Position numbers and translations under genes: made by a program. From Actinomycetota bacterium (GTDB lineage: Bacteria > Actinomycetota > Thermoleophilia > Solirubrobacterales > Solirubrobacteraceae), in contig VAXW01000005.1 of assembly GCA_005884115.1 (NCBI GenBank), positions 558,001-622,000 of the forward strand: a DNA stretch of 64,000 nt, written 5' to 3'. Under the pieces are notes generated by a model. It made no database searches and was not told the DNA's origin. It saw nothing but the letters and a program-made list of their open reading frames with translations. This document shows, in pieces, positions 17,377 to 23,713 of this stretch (the first letter of the stretch is position 1; each line of letters starts with the position of its first letter).

Positions 17377-17399
17377 GAGCCGCGGCGCTGCTGCGGCTC
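17377..17399. terminator. hairpin between convergent genes
   Basis: GAGCCGC, a 9-base loop, then GCGGCTC form a perfect 7-bp stem just beyond the stop of the minus-strand kelch gene. No T-run follows in either direction, so it is a terminator candidate only by position. Confidence 0.4.
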
Positions 17400-18462
17400 A
17401 GCGCACCCTGATTCGGAGGATCTCCCCGCGCACGTGGCCGCCGGAGTCGCGGCCGCCTGCCAGCAGCGCTTCTTCGCCTAGCGTGACGGCGGCGAGGTCG
17501 GACAGAGCCCGCGGCAGCTCTCCGGCGAGGCTCACCGCGCCGCTGGGCGAGATCGCGAGGATCTGGCGCGTCTGAGCGTTCAGTTCGGCTCCCCGGCCCC
17601 CGATCACGAGCACGCTGCCGCGCACCCTGACCGCGGCCGCGTGCGTGAGCGGGTGGGGCAGCCTCGCGAGCAGCGCGACCCTGCCGCTTGCGGGGTCGAA
17701 GCGGTAGACGTCGCGATCTGCGGTGGTGCCGGTCGTCCCCCCCGCGATCACGAGGCCGCCGCGCTGGGCGGCGACGGCGGCGTAGCGAACGGGTTGGGGC
17801 AGCAGCGCCGCGATCCGTGGCGGCTGGCCGGGACGCCAGGCGAGGATCGTGCGCAGCGGCACCTGTCCGGTGTAGCCGCCGACGATGTAGATGGTGCCGT
17901 CGATCTGCGCGCTGGCGACGTCGGACGCCGGCGTGGGGAGGCGGCCCGCCGGCTGTGCCTGGCCGCCGGCGGAGACGCGCAGGATACTCGCGAACGATTC
18001 CAGCGAGCCGCCGCCGAGCAGGAACACGGCGCCGCCGAGCGCGCTCGCCGTGGCGTCGTGCAGCGGGGCCGCCAGCGAGCCGATGCGCTGGCCCTGAGAG
18101 CCGCCCAGGCGCACTATCTGCGTGCTCGATCGATCGCTCTGATCGAGCCCCCCGATGAGCAGGGCGCTGGAGGCGCTGCTCGCGGCCACGGCCGCATCCT
18201 GGATCGGCTGCGGGAGCTGACCGGCGTACGTGACCAGCGCCCTCGGTGCCTGCGCTCGGGCTGCTGCCTGGTCGCTGCGCCGCGACGAGCGCCGCGAAGC
18301 GCCTTCGGAAGCGCCGTGGCGAGAGCTCCCCTGGGAGGCGAGCAGAACCGCGATCAGGATCGCGAGCAGAGCCCCGGCGGCCGCCGCGCGCCTGCGCCTG
18401 ACCGTGCGCCGGCGCGAGGCGGCTCCCGTCCGCCTCGCACGATCTGCGTGCGCGTCGCTCAT
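17398..18462 (-). CDS. membrane-anchored kelch-type beta-propeller protein
   Basis: 354 residues. A basic N-terminus (RRRTVRRRRAAAAG) is followed by one membrane segment (ALLAILIAVLLAS, residues 30-43), giving a type II anchor with the domain outside. From residue 80 on there are about six kelch-like repeats, seen as recurring GG pairs after hydrophobic strands: ALLIGGLDQ, FLLGGGSLE, YIVGGYTG, LVIAGGTTG, LVIGGRGAE, LLAGGRDSG. These would form a six-bladed propeller. No catalytic residues are seen; ligand binding outside the membrane is likely. The gene lies 3 bases downstream of a second anchored propeller gene, so the two are very probably one operon. Confidence 0.82.
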   Translation of the reverse strand: MSDAHADRARRTGAASRRRTVRRRRAAAAGALLAILIAVLLASQGSSRHGASEGASRRSSRRSDQAAARAQAPRALVTYAGQLPQPIQDAAVAASSASSALLIGGLDQSDRSSTQIVRLGGSQGQRIGSLAAPLHDATASALGGAVFLLGGGSLESFASILRVSAGGQAQPAGRLPTPASDVASAQIDGTIYIVGGYTGQVPLRTILAWRPGQPPRIAALLPQPVRYAAVAAQRGGLVIAGGTTGTTADRDVYRFDPASGRVALLARLPHPLTHAAAVRVRGSVLVIGGRGAELNAQTRQILAISPSGAVSLAGELPRALSDLAAVTLGEEALLAGGRDSGGHVRGEILRIRVR

Positions 18463-18465
18463 CCC

Positions 18466-19761
18466 CTAGGGGTGGACGACGGCGGCGTAGTCGGGGCCGC
18501 CGCGTGGCCCGATCGGAACGAAGTCCATTCCGTCGGGAATGTTGAGGTAGCCGGCGGCGGTTCCGGGGATGTCTGTGTGCCCGTACTGCCACACGATCCG
18601 TTTGGCGCGTGGTTCGATCACGATCACGCGGTGGCGGTAGTCGTCGTTGACGGCGATGTTCCCGTTGGGCAGCGGCAGCGCAAGCGAGGGATGGTCGAGC
18701 CGCCCGGGGCCACGCGCCGGGCCGTAGCGCCACAGCGTCTTCCCGCGGTGGTCGACGATCAGCACGTGGCCGGGGTTTGCGTAGTCGGAGAGGAGTATGC
18801 GCCCGCCCGGGAGCGGCTGCGGGTCCGAGGGATAGCTGACGGGTGCCTTGAGCGAGAACACGAGGCGCCCGTCCGGGCCGATTTCGTCGACCCAGCTGCC
18901 GTTGATCTCGCTCACCAGCACTCCTCCGCTCGGCGTCGGGGTATCGCCGTTGACCGCCGCCAGGTAGCGCGGGGGGTCATGCACGCACACTCCGGAGTGG
19001 CCGTACTGGCGAATGATGCGCCGGTTGCGGACGAACAGGATGCGGCAGGCGTACGCGTCGGCGACCGTGAAGGATCCGTCGGGCAGCGCGTAGGCGTCAT
19101 CGGGCGTATGCAGGTGCGTGCTGTCGTTTCCCGCTACGCCGGGGTGTCCGAACAGCACGTGCAGCTTGCGGTCGGCGAGCGTCACCTCGACGACCGCGTT
19201 GTTGTCCTCCTCGTTGGCGATCATCGCCGCCCCGCCGGGCACGACGAAGGTGTCGTCGTTGTAGACCAGGCGCCGGCCCATCCTGCGCTCGGCGGGCGTC
19301 GGGTACAGGAACACGACCTTCCCGGTGCGGTCCAGCACGAGGATGCGGTTGTTGCCCCGGTCGGCCACGAGCAGGTAACCGGCGGGGCCGGGGATCCTCG
19401 AAGCCGCTTCATACGCGGCCGCCGTCGCGGGCTGCGCAGCGACGACGTTCTGCGGCGCCCACAGGGCCGCCAGCCCGCCGATGGAAGCGGGCGCGAGCGG
19501 CCCGCCGGGGACGATCTGCTTGGCGCGCCGCGCCCCCGCGTGCTTGGCCCGGCGCGAGCTGTGCTCGCTCGAGCCGCCTGAGGTGAGCGCGACGACGAGC
19601 ACCACGACGATCGCGACCAGGCCGCCGGCAGCGCCCGCCAGGCGCTGCCGGCGCACTCTGCGCTGGCTCGCTGCTCGGCGTCTCGCTCGGGCGATGTCCA
19701 TAGGTCTGGCGGCGGCTGCCTCGGCGCCGGCGCGGCGCCGCGGAGCCTGCCTTGCGGGCAT
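18466..19761 (-). CDS. membrane-anchored NHL/PQQ-type beta-propeller protein
   Basis: 431 residues from ATG 19761, chosen because GAGGGG lies about 4 bases upstream; the frame is open to an ATG at 19830 inside a likely promoter. A basic stretch precedes a single membrane segment (GLVAIVVVLVVALT). The outside part carries repeated strand motifs typical of NHL or arylsulfotransferase-like propellers: LLVADRGNNRILVLDRTGK, GSFTVADAYACRILF, GGVLVSEINGSWVDEI, RILLSDYANPGHVLIVD and NIAVNDDYRHRVIVIEP, about one every 45 residues. The role is unknown. It is the first gene of a two-gene propeller operon and is divergent from the SnoaL gene. Confidence 0.8.
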   Translation of the reverse strand: MPARQAPRRRAGAEAAAARPMDIARARRRAASQRRVRRQRLAGAAGGLVAIVVVLVVALTSGGSSEHSSRRAKHAGARRAKQIVPGGPLAPASIGGLAALWAPQNVVAAQPATAAAYEAASRIPGPAGYLLVADRGNNRILVLDRTGKVVFLYPTPAERRMGRRLVYNDDTFVVPGGAAMIANEEDNNAVVEVTLADRKLHVLFGHPGVAGNDSTHLHTPDDAYALPDGSFTVADAYACRILFVRNRRIIRQYGHSGVCVHDPPRYLAAVNGDTPTPSGGVLVSEINGSWVDEIGPDGRLVFSLKAPVSYPSDPQPLPGGRILLSDYANPGHVLIVDHRGKTLWRYGPARGPGRLDHPSLALPLPNGNIAVNDDYRHRVIVIEPRAKRIVWQYGHTDIPGTAAGYLNIPDGMDFVPIGPRGGPDYAAVVHP

Positions 19762-19823
19762 AACGCCCCTCGAAAGCGCCGATGAGAATAGTCTCAGGCT
19801 TCCGGCTTGACAGCCTGACCGGC

Positions 19824-19853
19824 TTGACAACTTAGTTAGCAGTCACTTATAAT
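19824..19853 (+). promoter_or_regulatory. sigma70 consensus promoter with palindromic operator in spacer
   Basis: TTGACA at 19824-19829 and TATAAT at 19848-19853 are both perfect consensus hexamers with an 18-base spacer, in an AT-rich island unusual for this genome. The spacer region 19832-19849 (TTAGTTAGCAGTCACTTA) is an imperfect palindrome, TnAGTnA-n4-TnACTnA, like a TetR-family operator. Transcription would start near 19860 and read through the MMPL remnant into the SnoaL gene. Confidence 0.75.
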
Positions 19854-21083: not shown

Positions 21084-21479
21084 TCAGTGCACGACGATCT
21101 TGCCGCGCATGCCTTCCGCGACGTGAATCGAGCAGTGGTAGCTGAACGTGCCGGCGTGGGCGAAGCGCACCGTGTAGGAGCCGCTCCCCTGCGTTCGCGA
21201 ATGAAAGCGGTGGAAGGTGACGTTGTGTTCGGTTCCGCCGTCGCGCCACAGCCAGCGCACGCGATCGCCGCGCCTGATGCTGAGCGTCGCGGGGTGGAAG
21301 CGGATGTTCTTGAGCACGACGGTGTGCGTCGCGGCCGAGCGTGCCGTGGATGCCGCCGCCCCGGGGAGCGCGCCGGCGATGGCGAGTGCCAGCGCCGACG
21401 CTATGGCCAGAGTCGACGCTGCCGCCAGGCTGGCGCGCGCGCTTCCGGAACGGCGCTCAGGCGAGCGCACCGCGATCAC
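21084..21479 (-). CDS. secreted cupredoxin (plastocyanin-like)
   Basis: 131 residues. An Ala/Leu-rich signal peptide (about 20-45) precedes a single cupredoxin domain: VVLKNIRFHPATLSIRRGD, VRWLWRDGGTEHNVTF with the first copper-ligand His, and a C-terminal loop YHCSIHVAEGM with Cys, His and Met ligands. The type I copper site is therefore complete, so electron transfer outside the membrane is likely. The start overlaps the 3' end of the anti-sigma gene by 23 bases, so it is the last gene of a sigma/anti-sigma/cupredoxin operon. Confidence 0.88.
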   Translation of the reverse strand: MIAVRSPERRSGSARASLAAASTLAIASALALAIAGALPGAAASTARSAATHTVVLKNIRFHPATLSIRRGDRVRWLWRDGGTEHNVTFHRFHSRTQGSGSYTVRFAHAGTFSYHCSIHVAEGMRGKIVVH

Positions 21480-22158
21480 CCAGGGTCGCCAGACGCATCA
21501 GCGCTTGGGCGCTGATGCCGATGCCCGACATCACGCACAGATGCCCGCCGCGGCGCCAGCTCACCACGGCGACGCCGTCGCGGTTGAGCAGCCTGAAGTG
21601 CAAGCCGCGGTGCAGCCTGGTGACGCCTCCGCTCACCCTCGGGGGGGAGCCGGCGAAGATCGCATAGCCGATGCGCGCGCCCCGATCGTTGGAGTAGAAG
21701 ACCGTCCGCACCGCGCGCCCGTCGAGCCGGTCGCTGCGCGCGCCCACCGAGCGCCATCCGACCCGCTCTGCCCAGTAGGGGAAGGAGACACCCTGCACCG
21801 AGGCGGCCAGCTCGTCGCGGTTGCTCTTGCTCTCGCGCGGCGCCGCGGCCGTCGCCGGGCGAAGCGTGAGCGCGGAGGCGCTCTGCAGGCTCAGCGAGCG
21901 CCCGGGGCCTGTGCTCAACGCGACGATCGCCGCCACCGCGCCGGCCGCGACGGCCGCGGCGCCCGCGGCGGCGAGCGGGCCGCGCCCGCCGCTCAGCGCT
22001 CGCCCCAGAGCGCCGCTGACGCCCGCCCGCCGCCGGCGCTGTGAGTGAGCGAGCAGCATCGCGTCCACGCGCCGGTGCAGCGACTCCGGCGCGCGGACGT
22101 CTATCGAGCGCACCAGCTCGATCAGCTCGTCTTCAGTTTGGGGTCTTGGCTCGCTCAT
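21457..22158 (-). CDS. anti-sigma factor-like membrane protein
   Basis: 233 residues. The N-terminal 45 residues are a charged helical segment, then a membrane segment of Ala/Gly/Val (about 62-80), then an extracellular domain ending GVAVVSWRRGGHLCVMSG. The start codon overlaps the stop of the ECF sigma gene (ATGA), the classic layout for a cognate anti-sigma factor. The zinc anti-sigma signature HxxxCxxC is missing from the N-terminus, so it would be a non-zinc type sensing outside by its C-terminal domain. Assignment rests on position and topology rather than on recognised homology. Confidence 0.75.
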   Translation of the reverse strand: MSEPRPQTEDELIELVRSIDVRAPESLHRRVDAMLLAHSQRRRRAGVSGALGRALSGGRGPLAAAGAAAVAAGAVAAIVALSTGPGRSLSLQSASALTLRPATAAAPRESKSNRDELAASVQGVSFPYWAERVGWRSVGARSDRLDGRAVRTVFYSNDRGARIGYAIFAGSPPRVSGGVTRLHRGLHFRLLNRDGVAVVSWRRGGHLCVMSGIGISAQALMRLATLGDRGALA

Positions 22159-22784
22159 CGCGCTCGCCTACTGTCAAGGACTCCGCTGGATGGCAATCGT
22201 TCCCCGCCGTCGCGCTGGGAGGCGGCCTGCGGACGGGCGTTCTGTGATCCCGGCTGGGGCGCCGGCGCTTGTCCGCGCCGGTCAGGCGTGTCGGCGGAGG
22301 GATGAACGAGCCGCTGGGCGACCTGCTTGCGCGCCCGGAAGAGCCTCGTGGTGATCGTCGCCTCGCGCACGCGCAGGGCGCGAGCGGCTTCGCGGTAGGA
22401 GAGGCCGAGCACGTCGACGGCGACGAGCGCCAGGCGGAAGTCCTCCGGCAGCTCGGCGATCGTCGCGTAGACCTCCTGCACCTCGAGCGCCTCGTGCGGC
22501 CGGCCGATTGGCTTCGGGTCGGCAGCCACGATGTCGTCGAGCGTGGCGACGGTCACTGGCCTGCGGCTGGCGGTGCGGCGGCTCGAGAGGAACGTGTTTC
22601 GCAGCACCTTCATCAGGTAGTAGAGGTCGGCCTCGCCGTGCAGCAGGCGCGGTCGTGAGAGCACCCGCGCGAAGGTCTCCTGCACGAGGTCCTCGGCGTC
22701 CTCGCGCGAACCGCACAGGCCCAATGCGGCCCGGTAGAGCCGGTCGACGTGCCTGCCCAGCGATTGTGGATCGAGGATGCGCAT
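22155..22784 (-). CDS. ECF-type RNA polymerase sigma factor
   Basis: 209 residues. The sigma-2 region contains LYRAALGLCGSREDAEDLVQ and ETFARVL (-10 recognition helix next to it). The sigma-4 region contains LPEDFRLALVAVDVLGLSYR and the HTH EAARALRVREATITTRLFRA. The last 45 residues are a Pro/Arg/Gln-rich tail that ordinary ECF factors lack. No sigma-3 domain is present. The gene is divergent from a secreted cupredoxin gene that has a matching ECF promoter and is coupled to the putative anti-sigma gene. It most likely controls both cupredoxins in response to a cell-surface signal. Confidence 0.92.
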   Translation of the reverse strand: MRILDPQSLGRHVDRLYRAALGLCGSREDAEDLVQETFARVLSRPRLLHGEADLYYLMKVLRNTFLSSRRTASRRPVTVATLDDIVAADPKPIGRPHEALEVQEVYATIAELPEDFRLALVAVDVLGLSYREAARALRVREATITTRLFRARKQVAQRLVHPSADTPDRRGQAPAPQPGSQNARPQAASQRDGGERLPSSGVLDSRRAR

Positions 22785-22844
22785 TGGATTGCAGCGCTGG
22801 CCGCGCAGCGCTGCGATAGCCCGACCGTTGCGACTCTAGCGCCG

Positions 22845-22869
22845 GGAATGATTTCGATGCGCTGGCGTC
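22845..22869 (+). promoter_or_regulatory. ECF sigma promoter (GGAAT-N16-CGTC)
   Basis: GGAAT at 22845-22849 and CGTC at 22866-22869, separated by 16 bases, match the common ECF promoter pattern. The expected start site, about 7-10 bases after CGTC, falls at 22876-22880, the ATG of the cupredoxin gene. The transcript is therefore leaderless or nearly so. Confidence 0.7.
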
Positions 22870-22879
22870 CTGTCAGGAT

Positions 22880-23713
22880 ATGAGGACGCGCGGCCTGGTG
22901 CAGGGTGTGCTCGCGCTCGCGCTGGGCGCAGCCGTCGCGGCGCTGCCCGCCGTGGCTGGCTCGGAAACGGCCCCGACGATCGAAGCGGCGAACTACAGCG
23001 GCGGCGGTATCTACAAAGAAACGCACGCCTGGTCGCCGCCCGGCGCGACGGTCGGCGTGAGCGGTGTCGTCACGTTGGTGAACAACTCCTCGAGCGTCGA
23101 ACACGGAGTCGTGTGGTCGAGCGCGATCAGGCCGGCGTGCGAAGGCGTCCCCGAAAACCGTGGCGCCACGAGCTGGCGCGGGACGTGCACGTTCTCACAG
23201 CCGGGTACCTACACCTTCTACTGCTACGTGCACCCCACCGAAATGAAAGGCTCGATCACCGTCAACGCCAATGGGACCACGACCTCGACGACCTCGACCG
23301 GGACGACCACCACCTCGGGGGGCACGACGACCTCCCAGGGCACGCAGCCGGAAGGAGCCGCGCCGCTTGCGCGCGCGCTCAACGAAGCTCTCTCGCTCGC
23401 CCACGGCCAGCGCGGCACGCGCGTTCGCGGCTCGCTCAACGTGCCGCAGGCGGCCGTCGGCGGGCGCCTGTGGGTGCAGCTTCTGGCGAGGCGCGCGATG
23501 CTGGCCGTCTCCCATCGTCTCGTTGACGTGGGCCATCTCAGCCGTGTCTCGCTGCGCGCGGGGCGGCTGTCCTTCCAGGTGAGCGTCAACGCGAGGGCAC
23601 GCAGGGCGCTGCGCGCGCACCGCCGCCTGCCCCTGACGGTGAAGATCGCGTTGACGGACATGCACGGCTCGGTCGCGACGCGCACGCGAAGCGTCGTGCT
23701 GCACGCACGCTGA
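22880..23713 (+). CDS. secreted two-domain cupredoxin
   Basis: 277 residues with an N-terminal signal peptide (GVLALALGAAVAALPAVAG). Residues 35-130 are a cupredoxin: VNNSSSVEHGVVW supplies the first His, and FYCYVHPTEM supplies Cys, His and Met of a type I copper site. A Thr/Ser/Gly linker follows (residues about 135-155), then a C-terminal beta-rich domain of about 115 residues with no recognised motif. The combination suggests an exported copper protein tethered or extended by a linker. It starts within about 15 bases of a consensus ECF promoter and is transcribed divergently from the sigma gene. Confidence 0.88.
   Translation: MRTRGLVQGVLALALGAAVAALPAVAGSETAPTIEAANYSGGGIYKETHAWSPPGATVGVSGVVTLVNNSSSVEHGVVWSSAIRPACEGVPENRGATSWRGTCTFSQPGTYTFYCYVHPTEMKGSITVNANGTTTSTTSTGTTTTSGGTTTSQGTQPEGAAPLARALNEALSLAHGQRGTRVRGSLNVPQAAVGGRLWVQLLARRAMLAVSHRLVDVGHLSRVSLRAGRLSFQVSVNARARRALRAHRRLPLTVKIALTDMHGSVATRTRSVVLHAR

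Follow-up and report, generated by a model that had tools for sequence, protein, structure and literature searches.

In a 64,000-nucleotide stretch of Actinomycetota bacterium DNA (assembly GCA_005884115.1, contig VAXW01000005.1, positions 558,001 to 622,000; hereafter the window), we analyzed a locus encoding an extracytoplasmic function (ECF) sigma factor, a membrane anti-sigma factor, and two exported proteins with cupredoxin domains, here called cup1 and cup2. The genes for the sigma factor (22155..22784, minus strand, 209 amino acids), the anti-sigma factor (21457..22158, minus strand, 233 amino acids), and cup1 (21084..21479, minus strand, 131 amino acids) form a single operon of overlapping open reading frames, with 4 bases shared between sigma and anti-sigma and 23 bases between anti-sigma and cup1. 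The cup2 gene (22880..23713, plus strand, 277 amino acids) is divergent and lies 95 bases from the sigma start. A check of the open reading frames at these coordinates agrees with an original prediction, made from the sequence alone, of a sigma, anti-sigma, and cupredoxin operon with a divergent second cupredoxin. Our reading, which we consider probable, is that the locus controls a regulon of exported metal- and redox-type proteins through this ECF sigma factor.

The evidence begins with a promoter of the conserved form GGGAAGGwTC-N9-11-GGCGTC. The gap between sigma and cup2 contains an orthologue-conserved box oriented towards cup2, consisting of GGGAAGGATC, a spacer, and GGCGTCCT; with its GGAA and CGTC elements, the box resembles an ECF promoter. 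The predicted site (GGGAAT...GGCGTC; 22843..22872, plus strand) lies 7 bases before the cup2 ATG. With a matrix built from 17 promoters divergent from sigma, a training set that includes the cup2 site and not the anti-sigma site, the cup2 site ranked first in the window (score 28.2), followed by a weaker promoter-like site (GGGAAC...GGAGTC; 22176..22205, minus strand; score 19.3) that lies inside the sigma gene and ends 17 bases before the anti-sigma start. The divergent gene has a site scoring at least 18 in 23 of 36 orthologous loci (17 of them being the training sites), and cup1 has one in 8 of 10 loci; in relatives, such copies are located between anti-sigma and cup1. The anti-sigma gene has a site of at least 16 in front of it in 15 of 32 loci, usually at a distance of 14-17 bases from the start, against 1.3% of random windows at that threshold. 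In the genome carrying the window, cup1 is reached via the anti-sigma site, and in five distant loci (L061, L063, L069, L070, and L071) a site precedes sigma itself. This shared promoter suggests that sigma very likely drives the cupredoxins, in keeping with the earlier claim that the system deploys blue copper proteins. A second conserved box, GCTAGAGTCG (22831..22840, minus strand), lies upstream of sigma and is separated from the predicted cup2 site by 2 bases. A GCTACAGTCG-like box occupies this upstream position in 19 of 35 orthologous loci compared with 7 of 3000 random windows, and the GCTAGAGTCG box is perhaps a housekeeping -10 element.

The same promoter occurs well beyond the locus. 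We searched with a strict promoter pattern, alongside a reversed control, and with the matrix at score thresholds. In the host genome (3.14 Mb, 88% complete), the strict pattern gave 18 sites against 0 in the reversed control. Five of these (L094, L096, L103, L104, and L106) precede genes of named classes, namely cup2, a ferritin-like protein (PF13668, E 3.5e-12) of the twin-arginine translocation (Tat) type, and three PF03640 proteins. Among the rest, a cupin regulator (L100) and an exported, unassigned protein (L101) are uncertain targets, and the others appear chance-like or intragenic. Genus-wide, the strict search returned 66 matches and its reversed control 26, such that about four in ten of the strict matches may be chance; many are intragenic. 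Strict sites within 600 bases upstream and on the same strand were nonetheless found for 11 of 62 PF03640 genes (0.018 expected) and 11 of 97 PF00127 cupredoxin genes (0.028 expected), with none on the opposite strand or downstream of genes of either family. Nine of those 11 cupredoxin genes belong to the sigma locus, which makes their count partly circular, and 9 of the 11 PF03640 genes are away from it.

The presence of these sites follows the presence of the sigma factor, which was detected in 18 of the genus's 24 genomes. A matrix site of at least 15 precedes 24 of the 48 PF03640 genes in genomes that have sigma and 0 of the 12 in genomes that lack it (Fisher p 0.0009); the figures are 23 of 47 and 0 of 12 once one training overlap is removed, and 22 of 48 and 0 of 12 at a threshold of 17. 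On the wrong strand the count was 0 of 60. Counted by genome, 15 of 18 with sigma have such a site and 0 of 5 without it (p 0.0017). For the strict pattern alone the contrast between genes is weaker, at 11 of 50 and 0 of 12 (p 0.07). Strict sites of all kinds numbered 61 in the 18 sigma-positive and 5 in the 6 sigma-negative genomes (p 0.0017), with 19 and 7 in the reversed control. A long Tat ferritin-like type, present in the host genome, G092, and G105, has sites in 3 of 3 cases with scores of 21 to 31, compared with 0 of 26 other Ferritin_2 matches, none of which scored above 9 (one, L277, has only 4 bases upstream). For cupredoxins, where upstream scoring covered 63 of the 97 matches, sites were found for 18 of 22 sigma-linked genes (again partly circular), 8 of 36 unlinked genes in sigma-positive genomes, and 0 of 5 in sigma-negative genomes, with wrong-strand sites in 2 of 63. 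TatA genes also carry the site in G105 and L062.

Several observations weigh against the regulon reading. The genomes are related, such that the counts are not independent, and PF03640 occurs in only 5 sigma-negative genomes. Three genomes (G100, G103, and G107) have sigma and no PF03640 site at 15, and outside the closest group many sigma loci are without a site divergent from sigma. In the host genome 3 of 6 PF03640 entries have a strong site, and of 6 cupredoxin matches cup2 is the single one with its own strong site, another (C2:516003) being weak at 15.8. Moreover, among loci in the same chromosomal slot that could be resolved, cup1 is missing in 4 of 13 and cup2 in 3 of 14.

Conservation of the locus points to a stable core with exchangeable cargo. 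Of 146 genomes in the family, 78 contain the anti-sigma factor, and a profile detected it in 51 of 199 sampled from the class. A scan of species genomes recovered 53 loci, 35 of them (L039-L073) at 54% identity or more and all, by title, from Solirubrobacterales/Thermoleophilia or unplaced Actinobacteria. Fifteen loci share the slot between folK and coaX, with the region cut short in three of them (L042, L046, and L051). Of those that could be resolved, 9 of 13 have cup1 and 11 of 14 have cup2, and one locus (L039) has neither. A PF03640 gene with its own promoter site occupies the cup1 position in L043 (a contig of G097), and PF03640 is the divergent gene in L054, L056, L060, L065, L072, and L073 (E 4e-14 to 3e-30) and likewise in L059 (contig and gene the same as L128). 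Elsewhere the divergent gene encodes a small secreted protein (L069), a ferritin-like gene with a site follows the anti-sigma gene (L068), or separate sites serve PF03640, anti-sigma, cup1, and cup2 (L060). From these comparisons, the sigma factor, the anti-sigma factor, and the promoter are the constant elements, and the cargo alternates within one set. The module is conserved, and the free variation of neighbours that would have spoken against the original prediction is not seen, the neighbours being drawn from a small set that shares the promoter.

PF03640 is a "secreted repeat" family whose function is not known. A predicted structure of one member (L184:1471-1851) had a predicted local distance difference test score (pLDDT) of 94 and a predicted template modelling score of 0.88. 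Against solved sequences no relative was found (best E 0.45), and against solved folds Foldseek gave no match under E 0.001, with a best VIA Z of 2.1 among 688 Foldseek-ranked chains, a result that is an absence of match and does not prove a new fold. The motif IPQ(H/N)NGGDxDSDNxGGPSDGDGN occurs in or at the end of small secreted proteins (L069:3017-3250, L066:4070-4408, L133, and L137), whose genes lie downstream of a promoter copy, and some PF03640 proteins (L158 and L182) finish in almost the same sequence; this tail may be calcium-binding or anchoring. Unlinked cupredoxin or PF03640 genes (L219, L229, L231, and L237) lie by genes that read as cation-diffusion-facilitator-like transporters in the host genome, G105, and G106, and in G102 by genes that read as cytochrome bd oxidase-like. 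Two genomes (L138 and L157) have a primary-type sigma-70 gene with a strict promoter match upstream, perhaps indicating a sigma cascade.

The sigma factor itself matches Pfam region 2 (4.7e-11) and region 4 (4.8e-12) and lacks region 3, as is characteristic of ECF sigma factors. It exceeds the NCBIfam cut-off for TIGR02937, and no named sigma group exceeded an equivalog cut-off among the matches listed (25 of 81). Its closest solved sequence is Mycobacterium tuberculosis SigE (E 1.5e-20), and it contains one cysteine.

Both cupredoxins have the features of type 1 (blue) copper proteins, and copper binding is predicted from their sequences. The exported, single-domain cup1 matches Copper-bind PF00127 at 1.6e-9, and the N-terminal part of cup2 (residues 57-129) matches it at 2.9e-4, slightly above the curated cut-off. 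All 11 cup1 orthologues and 14 of 18 cup2 orthologues keep the full set of type 1 ligands (His...Cys-x-x-His...Met). The description of cup2 as a two-domain cupredoxin needs one correction: it has a single cupredoxin domain, and beyond a Thr-rich linker lies a C-terminal domain, about 115 residues long, that had no Pfam match and was not recognised as a cupredoxin. Divergent cup2 copies in L047 and L052 have lost the copper-ligand Cys and His, and the domain may have a different role in these loci.

The anti-sigma protein of the window had no Pfam match, and it is best read as an anti-sigma factor from the class I-like N-terminus of its orthologues, from a weak match to RsiW (the best solved match of the orthologue profile, E 0.047), and from zf-HC2 matches in 3 of 39 orthologues. 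A Pfam scan of these 39 members at E 0.1 matched 11 families in any member. The HxxxCxxC motif that defines zinc-binding anti-sigma factors was found in 0 of 39, which upholds the earlier "non-zinc" label. At least 19 of the 39 have an LADG-bearing N-terminal part that is missing from the window protein, which keeps the short C-terminal part only. As given in PMC7406223, the class I anti-sigma domain has four helices, with helix 1 contacting sigma4 and helix 4 contacting sigma2; judged by these roles, the window protein probably retains only the sigma2-binding end. This short cytoplasmic anchor is followed by one probable transmembrane helix at residues about 61-82 (21913..21978, minus strand), read in the sequence as a hydrophobic Ala/Val/Ile stretch where the structural model has low confidence, and by an outer, extracytoplasmic domain at residues 104-233 (21460..21849, minus strand).

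An AlphaFold model from the 39-member alignment had an overall pLDDT of 85, rising to about 90-98 across most of the outer domain. VIA-align matched this domain to the C-terminal domain of RseB (2p4b; Z 9.6, 97 residues, root-mean-square deviation 3.0, 18% identity) and to MucB (Z 8.9); other rows were mostly at Z 5 and below, with Tsi3, Dip2269, and TM1622 also reaching 8, and Foldseek returned no match under E 0.001, the value given being E 0.008. The outer domain is therefore predicted to have an RseB/MucB C-terminal-type fold, a likeness at the level of fold and not of function. The sole cysteine of the protein, Cys208 (codon 21535..21537, minus strand), is conserved in 39 of 39 orthologues, with a G-H-x-C context in 33 and no other cysteine in 37. 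An oxidant or metal signal is favoured because this invariant cysteine stands alone in an otherwise cysteine-free protein, and redox or copper sensing is plausible with this residue as its sole pointer; a protein or lipid signal is equally allowed by the predicted RseB-like fold.

The latter signal belongs to an alternative in which the locus serves general envelope stress, as RseA/RseB does: the outer domain would sense misfolded protein or lipid, the exported set would serve in repair and protection, and copper and redox would be incidental. The predicted structural likeness to RseB and MucB and the promoter copies on TatA genes in two genomes are consistent with such a role. We nevertheless consider it rather unlikely, given an invariant cysteine, a 233-residue protein that is without the N-terminal domain of RseB, and targets that are metalloprotein-like instead of chaperones and proteases.

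We regard as less probable still, and indeed improbable, the arrangement first proposed for the locus, a self-contained module that senses copper or redox state and serves to deploy two blue copper proteins. Within the genus, the linked targets are cupredoxins with ligands intact in most, and the one invariant outer cysteine usually has a histidine nearby. The same promoter, however, precedes unlinked PF03640 and ferritin-like genes, PF03640 takes the place of cup2 in distant orthologues, some loci are without one or both cupredoxins, and some cup2 copies have lost their copper ligands. The first two of these observations lead us to read the locus as controlling a dispersed regulon; together with the missing cupredoxins, they leave both the label "self-contained" and the idea of copper as defining cargo unsupported. 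We rejected a copper operon of purely local scope once the strict search of the host genome (18 sites, 0 reversed) pointed to PF03640 and ferritin-like genes. Finally, we consider it very improbable that a different ECF sigma factor uses the promoter and that the one studied here just happens to lie beside it: the host genome has 8 further sigma-like matches, one beside a PF03640 gene (L002), but that gene is without a site (score 1.5), and the sites lie within the locus itself, before anti-sigma, cup1, and in some relatives sigma, and track the studied sigma across genomes. The PF03640 gene at L002 (host genome C7:23050-26508; features at 501-998 minus and 1351-1986 plus) has a Met/Lys-rich tail of GKMKA repeats and adjoins an apparently thioredoxin-like gene as well as the other ECF sigma gene.

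Under the dispersed regulon that we prefer, sigma made at a base level would be held at rest by the membrane anti-sigma factor through its short cytoplasmic helix. An envelope signal acting on the RseB-C-like outer domain, possibly via the single invariant cysteine, would free sigma to transcribe anti-sigma, cup1, cup2, the dispersed PF03640 genes, and the ferritin-like type, as their promoters and co-occurrence suggest. Because sigma would transcribe all of these genes, it would also induce its own inhibitor, providing negative feedback. The cupredoxins, PF03640 proteins, and ferritin-like protein would then be loaded into the envelope, probably for the handling of copper, iron, or oxidants. 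More tentatively, and with less than even confidence, we hypothesize a Thermoleophilia-wide ECF pathway in which an RseB-C-like anti-sigma factor with a lone cysteine reads envelope redox or copper state and deploys interchangeable exported metal or electron-transfer proteins, with PF03640 as an unrecognised envelope redox or metal class working with cupredoxins.

In principle this is an ordinary ECF sigma/anti-sigma circuit, and its design resembles sigmaE-RseA-RseB of Escherichia coli and AlgU-MucA-MucB of Pseudomonas aeruginosa in combining an ECF sigma factor, a single-pass non-zinc anti-sigma factor, and an RseB/MucB C-terminal fold outside the membrane. It differs in that this domain is built into the anti-sigma protein instead of forming a separate protein, in that the large N-terminal domain of RseB/MucB is missing, and in its targets, which are exported cupredoxins, PF03640, and ferritin-like proteins. 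Targets also differ from those of M. tuberculosis SigK-RskA (PMC7509140), and the RskA C-terminal Pfam domain was not among the families matched by the 39 anti-sigma orthologues. Bacillus subtilis SigW-RsiW is similar to the extent of the weak profile match, but RsiW carries a zinc motif (PMC7406223) that the orthologues here lack. CorE of Myxococcus likewise links an ECF sigma factor to copper proteins; according to PMC10141476 it has a Cys-rich C-terminal extension with a CxC motif and no controlling anti-sigma factor, whereas the sigma factor here has one cysteine and an adjacent membrane anti-sigma factor. CorE and the plastocyanin switch PetRP, as described in the same paper, were set aside as different mechanisms. 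In the literature searched, which comprised open-licence papers only, we found no description of the module, the sensor arrangement, or the regulon content.

The flanks of the locus are housekeeping genes, with folP and folK on the left and a glutathione-S-transferase-like gene and coaX on the right (Pfam), followed by genes read from sequence as dus, greA, and lysS and used as synteny labels. At 17398-19830, between the folate genes and the sigma locus, are two exported proteins with repeats that read as kelch-like and NHL-like. The host belongs to an uncultured genus of Solirubrobacterales type, and its nearest named relatives are uncultured Solirubrobacteraceae/Solirubrobacterales genomes from metagenomes.

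For this lineage, a little-studied soil group with named strains (Conexibacter), the anti-sigma design, joining an RseB-like domain and a single invariant cysteine in one protein, presents a candidate envelope redox or copper sensor. More generally, PF03640 gains a testable context for its function, since one promoter links the family with blue copper proteins and with a ferritin-like protein of the Tat type.

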